DNA from: Actinotignum schaalii
GTDB taxonomy: Bacteria > Actinomycetota > Actinomycetes > Actinomycetales > Actinomycetaceae
Direction of reading: 5' to 3'
Assembly (NCBI RefSeq): GCF_028864145.1
Contig: NZ_JARBHJ010000001.1
Coordinates: 86,678 to 150,677 of the forward strand
Length of the DNA stretch: 64,000 nt
The translations under genes were made by a program, and so were the position numbers. This document shows, piece by piece, positions 32,238 through 54,838 of the stretch; within the stretch, counting starts at the first letter, position 1; every line of letters begins with the position of its first letter. The notes under the pieces were generated by a model. That model was not told the origin of the DNA, ran no database searches, and saw only the letters and a program-made list of their open reading frames with translations.

Positions 32238-33955
32238 ACGCGCACGTGCTGAAGAAACCCGGGGTGGGGCGTGCCCTCGCGGCGCTGCTCAGCGTGATGA
32301 TCCTGGCGCTGGCCGGATGTGGGCGACTGCCGCGGTCCGGGCCGGTTAATGAGGCGAGCGTGCCTCCCACTGAAGAAGCTGTTTTCGGTCTCACCCCGGC
32401 CGGCCCGGCTACCGGCGCTTCACCCGAAGAAGTGATCCGCGGTTTCCTGCTGGCCGGGAGCAGCGGGGCGGGCGATGATTACGCCACCGCCCGCCAATTC
32501 CTCACCAAAGAAGCCGGCCGCACCTGGAACCCGCGCTCCCAGGTGCGCGTGTACCCGAATTCTCAAAACATTTCCCCCACCCAACGGGAGGACGGCACCT
32601 ATGTTATTTCGGTGACCGCGCAGGGGACCGTGGACACCGGCGGGCGCTACACCGAGGCATCCACGGACGCCATCCACTCCACCACGTTCAAACTGGATCG
32701 TAATGCCAGCGGCGAATGGCGCATTGCCGAATTGGAAGACGGCATCATGATGACCGATAGCCTCTTCGCCTCGATGTACGTGCGTACCCCGCTCTACTTC
32801 ATCGGGCCCGGCTCGGATACCATGGTTCCCGACCTGCGCTTTTACCCGCGTATGACCTTTATTTCCTCCACGATTGCCGGGCTGCTGGCCGGTCCTTCGC
32901 CCTGGCTTGCCGATGCGGTGCACTCGGAAATTCCGACCACCTTGCGCATGGCCTCCAGCCCGAAACTGGAAAGCGGCGTGTTGACTTTGGATGTCACGGC
33001 CGAAATCTCCACCCTCAGCCGAGAATCCCAGGCCCGCGCCGTGCAGCAAATCCAGCGTTCCTTTACCGGCCAGAGCGTGGTGCCGGTGCATTCGGTAAAT
33101 ATCACGGTTTCGGGTGAGCCGCTGGATACCATCGCCATCGCGGACCTGCCCACGTACCCTTACGGTGCGTATGACCTTACGGTGCTGGAGAATAACCGGC
33201 CCTACAAGGTGGAAGAAGGCAAAACCCGCCCGGTCTTTACCAGCGGTGTGTTCGACGATATTCACGTGGCTCGCATGGCCGGGAATTATTCCGATTCGGT
33301 GGCCTCCTACGCCCTGCTCACCGCCCAGCGCGATGCCCTGGTACGGGTAAGTACCGACGGTTTCCAGCCCTTTACGATGGTGCGCGGGGAAAACTTGGTG
33401 GAGCCCTCCTACGACTACTGGGGCTGGGTGTGGACTTCCGAGGTTGATAACAAGGGCGTGGTGCTGGCCGCGGCTGATGACGGCCGAGTGCGCGAATTGA
33501 CCGCGCCTTTCCTCAAGGGGGCGCGGATTCGGGAAGTGCGGGCTTCCCGCGAAGGCGCGCGGCTGCTGATCGTGGCGCAGGTGGGGGACACCGTGCAGAT
33601 GCTTATTGCTCCTATTCAGCGCGATGCCCGCCACGAGCCGACGGCGCTCGGAGATCCGCTAGAGGTGGGGCAGCGCCTGGCGGATGTGAGTTCGGTGGCC
33701 TGGATTTCCAGTACGGATATCGCGGTGCTCGGACGCGCCACGGCCGGTACCGATCCGCTGATATTCGCAGTTCGGGTGGGCGGGCCCATGGAACGCCTCA
33801 ACGTCACCCCCTATCCGGGGTCGGTGCGGCTGACCGCCGGGCGCGGGGAACAATCGATCGTGGTCCTCACCGACCAGCAGGTTGTTGCCACTCGCGACGG
33901 CGGGGCCTGGCGCCCGGTTGCCACCGGCGTCACGGATATCGTGCTGCCGGGGTAG
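32234..33955 (+). CDS. lpqB: Lipoprotein LpqB
   Basis: A 573-aa lipoprotein with signal LSVMILALAGCG; lipobox cysteine C29. The mature part has a GerMN-like domain (about 220-330, including LTLDVTAEISTLSRE) and a beta-propeller-like C-terminal half. LpqB interacts with the MtrB sensor domain and tunes MtrA phosphorylation in mycobacteria. GAAAGGAGG precedes the ATG inside mtrB, and the genes overlap by 4 bp. The stop codon is the first of seven identical 9-bp units that run to 34013. Confidence 0.95.
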   Translation: MNAHVLKKPGVGRALAALLSVMILALAGCGRLPRSGPVNEASVPPTEEAVFGLTPAGPATGASPEEVIRGFLLAGSSGAGDDYATARQFLTKEAGRTWNPRSQVRVYPNSQNISPTQREDGTYVISVTAQGTVDTGGRYTEASTDAIHSTTFKLDRNASGEWRIAELEDGIMMTDSLFASMYVRTPLYFIGPGSDTMVPDLRFYPRMTFISSTIAGLLAGPSPWLADAVHSEIPTTLRMASSPKLESGVLTLDVTAEISTLSRESQARAVQQIQRSFTGQSVVPVHSVNITVSGEPLDTIAIADLPTYPYGAYDLTVLENNRPYKVEEGKTRPVFTSGVFDDIHVARMAGNYSDSVASYALLTAQRDALVRVSTDGFQPFTMVRGENLVEPSYDYWGWVWTSEVDNKGVVLAAADDGRVRELTAPFLKGARIREVRASREGARLLIVAQVGDTVQMLIAPIQRDARHEPTALGDPLEVGQRLADVSSVAWISSTDIAVLGRATAGTDPLIFAVRVGGPMERLNVTPYPGSVRLTAGRGEQSIVVLTDQQVVATRDGGAWRPVATGVTDIVLPG

Positions 33956-34013
33956 CCGGGGTAGCCGGGGTAGCCGGGGTAGCCGGGGTAGCCGGGGTAG
34001 CCGGGGTAGCCGG
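33951..34013. repeat. Seven perfect 9-bp tandem repeats starting at the lpqB stop
   Basis: Seven exact copies of GGTAGCCGG. As 9 is a multiple of three, each copy supplies a TAG in the lpqB frame. No gene is in the region; comF follows at 34115. Confidence 0.97.
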
Positions 34014-35174: not shown

Positions 35175-35828
35175 GTGGAGATTATCGTCAAGGGTAGGAA
35201 CACTGAAGTTTCGGACCGTTTCCGCAATCACATTGAAGAAAAAATCGCGAAGGTGGAACAGTTCGCTCCGCGTGCTCAGCGCGTTGAGGTAGAGGTGTCG
35301 AAGGAAAAGAACCCCGCCCAAGCGGATAACTCGAAAGTTATCGAAATCACGGTTATTGACAAGGGCCCGGTTATTCGGGCTGAGGCCTCAGCTGCTGATC
35401 AGTACAGCGCCCTCGATCTTGCATCCGGAAAGCTTTTCGAGCGGCTGCGCCGCTCGCGTGATCGCCGCAAGTCCCATCGGCGCGTGGTTGAGAAGGTGGG
35501 CGAACCGCTCACGCTTACCGCGGAGGATCTCGCGGCGGAAGCCCAGGCGGAGTCAAGGCCCGAAGTAGAAGTGGAAGCAGCGCATCCCACCCGTCCCGAG
35601 ACTACCGGGGAAGCGGTAGAAACCCAGCTGGGGGATTCCCCGGTTGTGGTGCGCGATAAGCTCTACGAAGCCAATCCCATGTCCGTGGATCAGGCTCTCT
35701 ATGAAATGGAAATGGTGGGGCATCCCTTCTACCTCTTCATTGACGAAGAAACGAAGCAACCGTGCGCGGTTTACCTGCGCCACGGCTGGACCTACGGGAT
35801 TATTCGTCTCGACACCACGGTGCACTAA
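35175..35828 (+). CDS. hpf: Ribosome hibernation promoting factor, long form
   Basis: Long HPF (217 aa) binds the 30S subunit and makes inactive 100S ribosomes when growth stops. The N-terminal domain (1-100) starts MEIIVKGRNTEVSDRFRNHIEEKI with the basic FERLRRSRDRRKSHRR stretch. A linker rich in Glu and Thr joins the C-terminal dimerisation domain, with ANPMSVDQALYEMEMVGHPFYLF. AAGGAGG at 35163-35169 sets the GTG start and excludes the longer frame from 35112. A hairpin with an 11-bp stem follows at 35926. Confidence 0.95.
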   Translation: MEIIVKGRNTEVSDRFRNHIEEKIAKVEQFAPRAQRVEVEVSKEKNPAQADNSKVIEITVIDKGPVIRAEASAADQYSALDLASGKLFERLRRSRDRRKSHRRVVEKVGEPLTLTAEDLAAEAQAESRPEVEVEAAHPTRPETTGEAVETQLGDSPVVVRDKLYEANPMSVDQALYEMEMVGHPFYLFIDEETKQPCAVYLRHGWTYGIIRLDTTVH

Positions 35829-35925
35829 ACACCGCACCCGGCGGCGGCCCGTGCCGTGCTTCCCGCACTGAAGAGCGGGATACTACTAGCGGAATATAAG
35901 CGGGCTGAAGCCACGAATACACACT

Positions 35926-35964
35926 AAGGCGAGGGATCGAGCGTCATGCCCGGTCCCTCGCCTT
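35926..35964 (+). terminator. hpf terminator hairpin
   Basis: AAGGCGAGGGA (35926-35936) is the exact inverse of TCCCTCGCCTT (35954-35964): an 11-bp stem with a 17-nt loop and no T-run. Confidence 0.7.
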
Positions 35965-36010
35965 ATGCCCGGCTCATACCCGACCATGCGCAGCCGCCTT
36001 CGACAACAGA

Positions 36011-36124
36011 GTGCAACGCTATCTACATAATTAATAGGATTTCATGTCGTCAGGTTGCATCCTGTGGGATTCGCTGTTCTCGGGTTGCATCCTGCGAGCC
36101 GCGATGTCGAGGTGTTGCTTTTTG
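36011..36124 (+). repeat. Intergenic element copy A (anti-core plus 30-bp-period cores)
   Basis: Anti-core GTGCAAC at 36011, ATCTAC at 36021, TGTCGT at 36045, core GTTGCAT-CCTG at 36054 and again at 36084, and a decayed third unit GTTGCTTTTTG at 36114. Offsets match copies B and C exactly. Direction is given by analogy among the copies. Confidence 0.85.
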
Positions 36125-36170
36125 AGAGCCTCGGCAGAACTGACTGCCTATCATCGGATCGGATCACAAA

Positions 36171-36254
36171 ATGGTACTGGAGCTACAGTCACCACCCGGT
36201 TTTCTGTCGTGCAGTACCATTCTGGGCGGCTCGATGTTCCCCAGTACCACCCTG
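36171..36254 (+). repeat. Intergenic element copy C with a different core
   Basis: Anti-core ATGGTAC at 36171, AGCTAC at 36181, TGTCGT at 36205, core GTACCAT-TCTG at 36214 and GTACCAC-CCTG at 36244. The layout equals copies A and B, but core and anti-core have both changed and remain complementary. Confidence 0.82.
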
Positions 36255-36312
36255 CCCGCAGTGAGCGCGGCTCGCTAAGATAGGGGAGGTGAACGCAGAA
36301 GGAGAGTTAGCC

Positions 36313-37800
36313 GTGACACATACATCCCCCGCCCCGGAGCACGCCACTTCGCATTCCGCATCGGAGCAGGATTCGCCGGCAGCAACCAAACAGGCCACAC
36401 CTGAGCAGGCCACACGGGAACGCCCCTATCGGGTAGCGGTGATCGGCGCGGGACCGGCCGGGATTTACGCCTCGGATATCCTCAGTAAATCCGATATCCC
36501 GGTCAGCATTGACCTTTTCGATAAGCTCCCCACCCCTTACGGTCTGGTTCGCTACGGGGTTGCCCCGGACCACCCGCGCATCGGCTCGATTATCAAAGCC
36601 CTCCATGCCATCCTCAAGCGTGGCGATATTCGCTTCCTCGGGAACGTAAAAATCGGGGAAGACGTCCACATGTCTGAAATTCACGAGTTTTACGATGCCG
36701 TCGTCGTCGCCACCGGCGCCGATCAATCCGTACCCCTCGATATTCCGGGCGCCGATCTTCCGGAAGTCTACGGGGCCGCAGATTTCGTTTCTTGGTATGA
36801 CGGCCACCCGGATGTGCCGCGCACCTGGCCCCTCAACGCCCGCAACGTTGCGGTGATCGGAGTGGGGAATGTGGCCCTCGATATTTCCCGCATCCTCGTG
36901 CGATCTGTGGATGACCTGCGCGCCCACACCGATATTCCCGAGAATGTGGAGCGCGGGCTACGCGCCAACCCCGTCGAACACGTGCATATCTTTGGGCGGC
37001 GCGGCCCGGCCCAGGTGAAGTTCACCCCGCTTGAGCTGCGCGAATTGAGCGAAGTGCCCGGGGTAGATATTCAGGTGTATCCCGAAGATTTCCAATACGA
37101 TGCCGGGTCTCAAGAGGCTCTGGATTCCTCGAAGATGACCCGTCAAGTGGTGGACCTCCTCACCGACTGGGTTTTCAACGACCCGGAGGAGATGACCTCC
37201 CCGCGTCGAATTCATATTCACCTCATGCAGGCCCCGGTGGAAATCCTCGGCACGGATCACGTGACCGGGATCCGCATGGAACGCACCCAGCTGCGGGGGG
37301 ACGGCACCGTGGCCGGTACTGGAGAAACCGTGGATTACCCGGTAGAAGCGGTCTACAGCGCTATCGGCTACGCTTCCGAGCCGCTGGACGGGCTGCCCTG
37401 GGATCCGATCCATCGGGTTATCCCGAATGTGGAGGGTCGCATCATCACCGAAACGGGGGAGACCATTCCCGGTTACTACGTGACAGGGTGGATCAAACGC
37501 GGCCCCGTTGGCCTGATCGGCTCCACGAAATCCGATGCGCGCCAAACCATTCGCCACCTTATTGCCGACGCTCAAGCTGGAATCGCGCGCGCCACCGGGG
37601 ATGGCTCGGGCGGGCGTGGGCTCCTTGACCTCCTCACCGAACGTGGTGTGAAATGGACCACCTGGGAAGGGTGGGAGCTCCTGGAAGCTTTCGAAGAAAA
37701 CCTCGGAGCCCAGCAGGGGCGCGCCCGGGTCAAGGTGGTCAACCGTGACACGATGACCGCGATTTCTCGCGGGGAGTCGCACGACGGCGCACTTGTCTAA
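36313..37800 (+). CDS. fprA: Ferredoxin/flavodoxin-NADP+ reductase
   Basis: A flavoprotein of the adrenodoxin-reductase/FprA type that passes electrons between NADPH and ferredoxin. The FAD site is VAVIGAGPAGIYASDIL; the NADP site is VAVIGVGNVALDISRIL. PTPYGLVRYGVAPDHP and GYYVTGWIKRGPVGLIGSTK are family blocks. About 35 low-complexity residues precede the FAD domain. Two GTG starts are possible: 36289, seven bases after TAAGAT (leaderless), and 36313, seven bases after GAAGGAGA; I chose the latter. The lipoate ligase gene follows 45 bp downstream, so the pair may be one operon. Confidence 0.92.
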   Translation: MTHTSPAPEHATSHSASEQDSPAATKQATPEQATRERPYRVAVIGAGPAGIYASDILSKSDIPVSIDLFDKLPTPYGLVRYGVAPDHPRIGSIIKALHAILKRGDIRFLGNVKIGEDVHMSEIHEFYDAVVVATGADQSVPLDIPGADLPEVYGAADFVSWYDGHPDVPRTWPLNARNVAVIGVGNVALDISRILVRSVDDLRAHTDIPENVERGLRANPVEHVHIFGRRGPAQVKFTPLELRELSEVPGVDIQVYPEDFQYDAGSQEALDSSKMTRQVVDLLTDWVFNDPEEMTSPRRIHIHLMQAPVEILGTDHVTGIRMERTQLRGDGTVAGTGETVDYPVEAVYSAIGYASEPLDGLPWDPIHRVIPNVEGRIITETGETIPGYYVTGWIKRGPVGLIGSTKSDARQTIRHLIADAQAGIARATGDGSGGRGLLDLLTERGVKWTTWEGWELLEAFEENLGAQQGRARVKVVNRDTMTAISRGESHDGALV

Positions 37801-54094: not shown

Positions 54095-54484
54095 ATGGCT
54101 AAGCTCTCGACCGAAGAGCTCATTGCAGCTTTCAAGGAGCTCACCCTCGTTGAGCTCAACGATTTCGTCAAGGCGTTCGAAGAGGAATTCGACGTTGAAG
54201 CCGCGGCTCCCGTTGCCGCCGTTGCCGCTCCGGCCGCTGCCGGTGGCGACGCCGGTGCCGCCGCCGAAGAAAAGTCCGACTTCGATGTTGTCCTCGAAGC
54301 CGCTGGCGACAAGAAGGTTGCGGTCATCAAGGAAGTCCGCGCCCTCACCTCCCTCGGCCTCAAGGAAGCCAAGGACCTCGTGGACTCGGCCCCCAAGGCC
54401 GTCCTCGAAGGTGTGGACAAGGATACCGCCGACAAGGCCAAGGAAGCCCTCGAGGGCGCCGGCGCCACCGTTACCCTCAAGTAA
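54095..54484 (+). CDS. rplL: 50S ribosomal protein L7/L12
   Basis: L7/L12 (129 aa) is the multi-copy stalk protein that recruits translation factors. The N-terminal dimerisation helices ([21 protein letters not shown]), an Ala/Pro hinge of about 25 residues ([16 protein letters not shown]), and the C-terminal domain [24 protein letters not shown] with [14 protein letters not shown] are all intact. GGAAAGGAAGG precedes the ATG. Four hairpins follow the stop. Confidence 0.98.
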
Positions 54485-54492
54485 CACGGCAC

Positions 54493-54596
54493 GCCGAGTC
54501 ATTCGGCTTATCGGCTGAGCAATCAGCCGGCGGGGCGCGAGCTTTGTGCTCGCGCCCCCGTTTTACAAGCGGATACGCCCCGGCGTATCCGCTTGT
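54493..54596 (+). terminator. Four consecutive hairpins after rplL
   Basis: Stems are GCCGA/TCGGC (54493-54507), CGGCTGA/TCAGCCG (54512-54529), GGGGCGCGAGC/GCTCGCGCCCC with T4 (54532-54564), and a 15-bp stem ACAAGCGGATACGCC/GGCGTATCCGCTTGT (54565-54596). The third is a standard intrinsic terminator. Confidence 0.9.
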
Positions 54597-54838
54597 TTGT
54601 GTATGCGCTCTCACGTGAAGTTTCTCGACATCGCGGAGAGCGCGGCCTGCCCACTCACAAAGTGCAACGGCAACTACGTTAAGAAATTGTTTTGATGTCG
54701 TGGGGTTGCATCCTGTGGGCCCCGCTGTTGTGGGGTTGCATCCTGTGGGGTGTGGTGTTGTGGTGTTGCATCCTGTAGGCCCGGCGGCCGCGCCCGCGGC
54801 TAGCCCTTCGAAGAAAGCTCTCGACTACACTGGCACGG
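54597..54838. other. Intergenic region with element B
   Basis: No gene is evident. The stretch contains element copy B (54662-54775) and TACACT at 54826-54831, seven bases before the next GTG. Confidence 0.6.
54662..54775 (+). repeat. Intergenic element copy B, best preserved
   Basis: Anti-core GTGCAAC at 54662, AACTAC at 54672, TGTCGT at 54696, core GTTGCAT-CCTG at 54705, 54735 and 54765. The 30-bp units also share CGCTGTTGTGG-like spacers. Offsets equal those of copies A and C. Confidence 0.88.

Follow-up and report, generated by a model that had tools for sequence, protein, structure and literature searches.

The question raised by this locus is why three short elements of intergenic DNA in Actinotignum schaalii, copies A, B and C, carry an anti-core and several cores whose letters change between copies while the two remain complementary. 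We call the window the whole stretch of 64,000 nucleotides that was analysed (contig NZ_JARBHJ010000001.1, positions 86,678 to 150,677). A preliminary description had seen in such compensatory change a sign of base pairing in RNA or single-stranded DNA; our analysis confirms the change and gives a different leading interpretation of it.

Direct reading of the window found the layout and offsets claimed for all three copies present as stated. Copy A has the anti-core GTGCAAC at 36011, ATCTAC at 36021 (+10), TGTCGT at 36045 (+34), the core GTTGCAT at 36054 (+43) and again at 36084 (+73), and a decayed core, GTTGCTT, at 36114 (+103). In copy C the anti-core ATGGTAC (36171) is followed by GTACCAT at 36214 (+43) and GTACCAC at 36244 (+73), and in copy B the anti-core GTGCAAC (54662) is followed by cores at 54705, 54735 and 54765. 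The anti-core had been taken for a 7-bp complement of the core; it is complementary, but it is really part of an inverted copy of a whole unit of about 21 bp. A module thus consists of one such unit, present once inverted and then repeatedly as direct copies. The features are as follows.

35175..35828, + strand: hpf-type gene, transcription unit upstream of A and C (PF02482 and PF16321)
35925..35965, + strand: terminator-like hairpin between hpf and module A (inverted repeat, 18 nt arms, 89% complementary)
36005..36067, + strand: module A (class 1), inverted and first direct unit (covariance-model match, 59.9 bits; in the model)
36075..36096, + strand: module A, second direct unit, core at 36084 (direct reading, motif match)
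36105..36124, + strand: module A, third direct unit, decayed, GTTGCTTTTTG (direct reading)
36165..36227, + strand: module C (class 2), inverted and first direct unit (covariance-model match, 67.3 bits; in the model)
36235..36254, + strand: module C, second direct unit (direct reading, motif match)
36289..37800, + strand: gene downstream of C, start uncertain (open reading frame; relatives found by search)
54095..54484, + strand: rplL, 50S ribosomal protein L7/L12, transcription unit upstream of B (TIGR00855, found on L145:1973-2362, position converted)
54565..54596, + strand: terminator-like hairpin between rplL and module B (sequence reading)
54656..54718, + strand: module B (class 1), inverted and first direct unit (covariance-model match, 66.9 bits; in the model)
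54726..54775, + strand: module B, second and third direct units, cores at 54735 and 54765 (direct reading, motif match)

We take the gene at 35175..35828 to be the ribosome hibernation factor gene hpf, and the one at 36289..37800 presumably encodes a relative of ferredoxin/flavodoxin-NADP+ reductase; the latter is 92% identical to its counterpart in A. schaalii FB123-CNA-2. Elsewhere in the window, at about 33950-34010, a short tandem repeat reading (GSR)n lies inside an open reading frame between two genes.

The motifs are well above chance in the window. Allowing up to one mismatch, GTTGCATCCTG matched 7 times against a shuffle mean of 1.24, and AGTACCAYYCTG 3 times against 0.41; none of 100 shuffles reached either count. 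A covariance model, with A, B and C themselves among the sequences used to build it, recovered these three in the window and otherwise just two weak antisense echoes (of C and B; E up to 1). Beyond the window, a core-free pattern, which covers two core classes (GTGGTAC/GTACCAC and RTGCAAC/GTTGCAY, plus one single-letter variant), gave 65 hits in five of the six genomes of the genus, and the reversed control pattern one hit in one genome. The model search of the genome and its relatives that had been proposed yielded dozens of further copies in five genus genomes: 46 matches in the window's own genome, 52 in G001, 43 in G003, 62 in G004 and 68 in G005, a total of 271 that may include antisense echoes, and none in the sixth genome, G002. 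Under stricter filters, at which weak matches are lost, 94 of 99 relatives had no match, nor had 208 of 213 family genomes, the matches falling in the other five. A, B and C are therefore three modules of one dispersed repeat family that is restricted to the genus and present in five of its species. Two 21-mers had no exact match among viral contigs and the window's 36000-36290 none in a plasmid collection, and we reject a phage or plasmid origin. From 107 fetched loci, to whose alignment 150 of 177 matches were admitted, we took 186 non-redundant modules (171 unique) out of 249 aligned rows; these are a subset of the model matches, with further places among the matches listed for family genomes, so the family has at least 186 members.

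Spacing is rigid in these further copies, as the preliminary description had supposed from three. The inverted unit lies 43 bp before the first direct unit in 127 of 159 modules, 42 in 31 and 41 in one, so that 158 of 159 have an offset of 42 or 43; direct units follow at steps of exactly 30 bp in 139 of 144 cases and 31 bp in five, and a module has 0-7 of them by a strict rule, all these tallies predating the reassignment of four rows first labelled class 3. At orthologous sites the number of units differs. An apparent tandem duplication in L155 was set aside, having a stretch of N between its copies that may mark an assembly artefact.

There are at least six core classes, and the units inside one module agree. 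Classes 1 to 4 share a unit plan of TGT, about 8 bp, the class-specific core, and CAY; the class 2 unit, for example, is TGTCGTGCAGTACCACTCTGT in its direct form and TGTAGCTCCAGTACCACTTTGT in its inverted form read on the other strand, and class 2 modules, like MITEs of the DDE type, have terminal inverted repeats (CAAAGTGGTACTGGAG ... CTCCAGTACCACTTTG). The flanks of the first copies supplied four more classes with the layout unchanged: class 3, GTG(CGC/GGC/TGC/GGT)GTAAGAG; class 4, RTGTACRT..TGACA; class 5, AAGCAAC or ATGCAAC..GTTGCTTT; and class 6, GTGCAAAT or GTGCAAGT. Class labels come from a simple rule that mislabelled four of 66 initial class-3 rows (L143, L173, L175 and L260); these were moved for the recounts of order, compensation and unit identity given below, and the last two recounts also drop class-3 rows that are shifted or interrupted, namely those of L261, L159 and L155.

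We compared unit 1 with unit 2 at a fixed distance of +30, without selecting for similarity. Agreement in the TGT patch was 91, 75 and 78% in classes 1, 2 and 3, 59% in class 4, and 30 and 39% in classes 5 and 6; in the core with its CA it was 79, 78 and 75% in classes 1 to 3 and 62-88% across the six classes (88 and 75% in classes 5 and 6). The spacer agreed at 64, 33 and 31% in classes 1 to 3 (31-40% across classes 2-6), and the sequence upstream of the unit at 25, 20 and 18% in classes 1 to 3. Because the patches agree and the spacer and upstream sequence do so less, units 1 and 2 are not recent duplicates, at least in classes 2 and 3. Where both patches are present they lie about one helical turn apart.

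Our preferred explanation, tentative and drawn from sequence comparison, is a BOX-like, genus-restricted, modular DNA repeat built of putative protein-binding sites. The units would be double-stranded recognition sites of a putative protein, a recombinase or an architectural or other DNA-binding protein, which would occupy all units of one module together. On this proposal the patches are conserved, the spacing is rigid and nearly phased, and all units agree because the units are jointly bound sites. Further points in its favour, detailed below, are the order and orientation of modules, the slots in which different modules survive, the absence of isolated class-2 units, the level core counts of G.U and A.C and the small strand preference in folding. 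Most likely the family would have spread in the ancestor of the five species as non-autonomous DNA beside terminators, its copies now persisting as mostly immobile slots. Several observations count against this explanation. Several core classes would need several proteins or one tolerant protein; the TGT patch is poorly kept in class 4, and classes 5 and 6 lack it in that form; G.U outnumbers A.C at pair 1 and across the eight pairs together; most modules fold better on the sense strand than their shuffles do, although this should be true of any inverted repeat; and the orientation of modules, sense to the gene before them, is more readily explained for something transcribed.

The main rival, which we regard as a substantial possibility though a less probable one, is a hairpin in RNA or single-stranded DNA. 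Here the anti-core would pair with one of several cores as a 3′-end structure or switch, in read-through 3′ RNA or in single-stranded DNA, each module's own stem preventing cross-pairing of neighbours. That both halves change and stay complementary across many core types is confirmed. Of the 65 pattern hits, 64 pair over seven-base arms with G.T allowed (55 without any G.T), and the sole exception has two mismatches. In a first alignment of 41 modules, where loop-side letters are conserved and stems variable, as a hairpin would have it, every row pairs at columns 10-12, each of which has three kinds of pair, one kind being a single U.G. The test for covariation that had been called for was positive: the score was 0.464, whereas shuffles gave 0.171, with none of 500 reaching 0.464, and sliding the partner gave at most 0.161. 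Taken alone this score is biased, since the 41 rows were selected partly because their arms pair. Among 131 unique modules outside the training set, core pairs 4-7 comprise 474 Watson-Crick, 13 G.U, 16 A.C and 21 other pairs out of 524, in 31 core combinations; this count, too, leans toward pairing, as the model encodes pairing and some of the modules are near copies of training rows.

The step from compensatory change to base pairing, in contrast, is not supported. Selected pairing on the sense strand should make G.U exceed A.C and the sense strand fold better. In the core G.U and A.C are level (19 versus 18). Over all eight pairs G.U does lead (77 versus 40), which speaks for hairpins, the excess coming from pair 1 (30 versus 5) and pair 8 (24 versus 13). 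Sense-strand folding is also more stable than in shuffles (mean z -3.1, below -2 in 121 of 171 unique modules), yet the antisense strand folds nearly as well: sense was the more stable in 91 of the 171 and antisense in 76, with a mean difference of -0.64 kcal/mol. The inner stem, moreover, is largely conserved and shows little covariation, the loop is nearly fixed in length, and no Rfam family matched.

Unit 2, which lies outside the proposed hairpin and outside the covariance model, covaries as well. In class 3 its letter at the subtype position equals the anti-core letter in 47 of 48 rows, against a mean of 16.9 and a maximum of 28 after shuffling; the 48 are those of 62 rows that have CA where unit 2 should have it. 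When each slot and core letter is represented by a single row, the match is 31 of 31 (shuffled mean 10.3, maximum 19). Such a match of unit 2 to the anti-core is expected of repeated copies of one recognition site, though alternative pairings of one anti-core with several cores, as suggested earlier, are compatible with it too. In favour of a switch, class 3 has two mutually exclusive pairings: the first unit pairs inward along as many as 13 bp, the last one outward.

Genomic position bears on both explanations. Where an upstream transcription unit is present in the locus, 175 of 178 modules lie downstream of one on their own strand, a sense orientation on the 3′ side that counts in favour of hairpins. 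By context, the 186 modules divide into 113 tandem sense, 3 tandem antisense, 55 convergent and 0 divergent, with 7 lacking a gene seen downstream and 8 a gene seen upstream. Orientation is informative in tandem pairs only, since between convergent genes either orientation counts as sense, and in tandem pairs it is sense for 113 of 116 modules. Counted by site family and its majority, 20 families are tandem sense, 13 convergent and 1 tandem antisense; none is divergent, and 2 have no upstream gene called. All these counts use gene calls from an uncurated codon-based script. Among the upstream units are rplL, hpf, eno, fructose-bisphosphate aldolase, gnd, glmM, sucB, trpS, glgB, carD and tRNAs. 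Of the 30 upstream proteins scanned, 11 matched no NCBIfam family within the limits applied, including one that Pfam identifies as CarD; for one slot (L293) the gene chosen as upstream is on the opposite strand. Between the gene end and the module, a strong hairpin was found for 69 of 100 cluster heads (mean score 17.7 versus 10.5 shuffled), which makes transcription of the modules doubtful and so weighs against hairpins in RNA.

The three antisense modules fall into two situations. One, in a slot common to three species, has a 52-aa reading frame directly upstream on its own strand. This frame (MYGFIWRHLPGPTWLKVIEALII...; L197, L157 and L180) is nearly identical in the three species, precedes a class-2 module in each, and is below the length that many gene callers accept. 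The other two, from one slot (L156 and L293), follow a non-coding stretch of about 300 bases that is very similar in two species; at its end, on the strand of the module, is a strong terminator-like hairpin. The stretch had no Rfam match and is perhaps an undescribed RNA.

The loci form 36 slots, of which 7 occur in five genomes, 7 in four, 6 in three, 9 in two and 7 in one, so that 29 are common to two or more genomes; one site family (L270/L275/L286/L292) has two loci from one genome and possibly merges two slots. Modules within a slot follow a preferred order. Counting neighbours, 5 precedes 2 (11), 2 precedes 3 (15), 3 precedes 4 (13), and R follows 3 (19), 2 (18) and 4 (9) and precedes 1 (11) and 6 (3), where R is a conserved hairpin-like stretch (GTGTTTTTCCGAG..TGTACTTCGCATGTACGACA..CTCGGAMAACAC) that terminates or splits many arrays (L143:2702, L148:2734 and many others); its middle has no match in the window with up to 2 mismatches. 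Altogether the order 5-2-3-4-R-1/6, itself derived from these data, is respected by 107 of 127 neighbour pairs; the exceptions include 6 before 3 (5), 4 before 3 (3) and 1 before 2 (3). Species often differ in which modules they retain in a given slot, which is what independent losses from a longer array would produce. In one slot a class-3 module has apparently been lost between short direct repeats (GCCCMGG) in two species (L196 and L148 compared with L158 and L179).

Past mobility is inferred only, since neither a target-site duplication nor a clean empty site was seen. Among 48 class-2 and class-3 modules, one had a duplication of at least 5 bp where 0.71 were expected, the copies being old, and the one partly empty site inspected was not clean; we therefore reject simple insertion with target duplication. 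For an autonomous insertion sequence ending in class-2 units, the one class searched, no candidate appeared: all 86 occurrences of AGTACCACTTTG, which matches class-2 units, lie within about 150 bp of a module start, and none is isolated. Separately, an IS110-family element (PF01548 and PF02371) appears to use the repeat as its target. At four loci of G001 (L159:2691-4124, L155:2709, L160:2869 and L161:2421), with one end or both seen per locus, it interrupts a class-3 module at one and the same point of its first direct unit, with ACGCG(C) on one side and CACTTGACGG on the other.

This history is also what a parasitic or neutral repeat might leave, its units homogenised by template switching, slippage and recombination between modules, with no function and no bound protein. 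Variable unit numbers, the loss between direct repeats, the different modules retained in the same slots, and the lack of matches in the sixth genome of the genus and in the further genomes searched all agree with it. So does the pattern of change among same-class modules of one slot, where pair-breaking core changes on one arm (10) are as common as pair-keeping changes on both (9); a further 6 one-arm changes keep a G.U pair, and 4 positions changed on both arms include some unpaired state. Within slots, then, compensation is seen in class 3 alone, and even there it is loose. Homogenisation, however, should not leave units that have diverged outside a few short conserved patches, as those of classes 2 and 3 have, nor does the spacing show erosion, and we consider a purely parasitic or neutral repeat unlikely.

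A more functional version of bound sites is a genus-specific boundary system. Arrays of phased, directional putative protein sites, written in several core dialects distinct from one another and each occupied as a unit, would follow the terminators of numerous housekeeping genes and tRNA operons and form a barrier against read-through. The model for it is the boxes bound by terminator proteins downstream of eukaryotic rRNA genes. We think this a rather improbable reading of the arrays.

Less probable still are recombination sites with a free overlap (the core), recombining within their own class: some tyrosine or serine recombinases do leave the overlap free and require only identity between partner sites, and the modules have free yet shared cores, constant flanks and adjoining inverted and direct copies, but the preferred order and orientation argue against frequent inversion or shuffling, and a 30-bp spacing is too short for recombination between neighbours.

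Integron attC sites have imperfect inverted arms, an internal mismatch region, a variable loop and core triplets. The modules resemble them in the first three features, but the triplets fit classes 1 and 5 only and the neighbours are shared, conserved housekeeping genes, and on these grounds the integron reading is rejected.

The preliminary description knew of no family with this layout. This holds for Rfam and for the papers listed, whereas the general kind, a BOX-like modular interspersed repeat, is known. Rfam found only tRNAs in the window, and in eight module loci two matches with E up to 1 and far below the gathering score (26.8 of 45 and 26.4 of 67 bits), so a known RNA family is rejected, tRNAs apart. 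Among the papers listed, most subscription papers being outside the coverage, no mention of such a repeat was seen, and a search for terminator-linked repeats gave none that matched. The accessible part of the A. schaalii genome paper (PMC5720513) does not mention it either and gives a different 29-bp repeat for CRISPR, which is thereby rejected.

The closest likeness is to BOX of Streptococcus pneumoniae. According to the accessible part of its description (PMC3049150), BOX is an old modular intergenic repeat, boxA-boxB(n)-boxC, with a variable number of units, that occurs almost exclusively in a few related species and has some half of its sites in common between all strains; it is over-represented between convergent genes, and target-site duplications are reported. 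Our modules, compared with that description and not with the boxA, boxB and boxC sequences, are likewise small and intergenic, with outer modules around a variable number of internal units, outer parts capable of forming a stem, many convergent sites and a range of a few related species. They differ in their class-specific core, in having at least six classes in a preferred order, in the 30-bp steps, in the strong sense orientation, and in that no target-site duplications were seen. SPRITE, as far as the same source describes it (PMC3049150), is also a hairpin repeat near gene 3′ ends, but is itself a terminator-like long duplex with a T tract, while the modules often stand behind a separate terminator-like hairpin and have no such T tract in the copies read. 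REP, BIME and REPIN sequences with RAYT form mosaics of intergenic inverted units (PMC2817692, in the part available); neighbouring modules here, in contrast, mostly have one orientation and do not alternate. The Y1/RAYT transposase (PF01797) was found in none of 6 genomes, with the control positive in 5 of 14, which rules out REPIN/RAYT. A MITE of Porphyromonas gingivalis with an internal minisatellite is similar in being an inverted-repeat element with internal tandem repeats, from what is accessible of its report (PMC4596501).

Covariation between repeat arms is usually read as a sign of RNA or DNA hairpins. With well over a hundred unique copies in five species and a third arm copy that covaries, this family makes pairing and shared-site recognition separable by experiment. 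That its modules, across 36 slots, so consistently point the same way as the transcription unit they follow is, to our knowledge, uncommon among dispersed repeats of bacteria. Should all units of an array be occupied together, one would have to ask how, with so many core dialects, an array is recognised as one.
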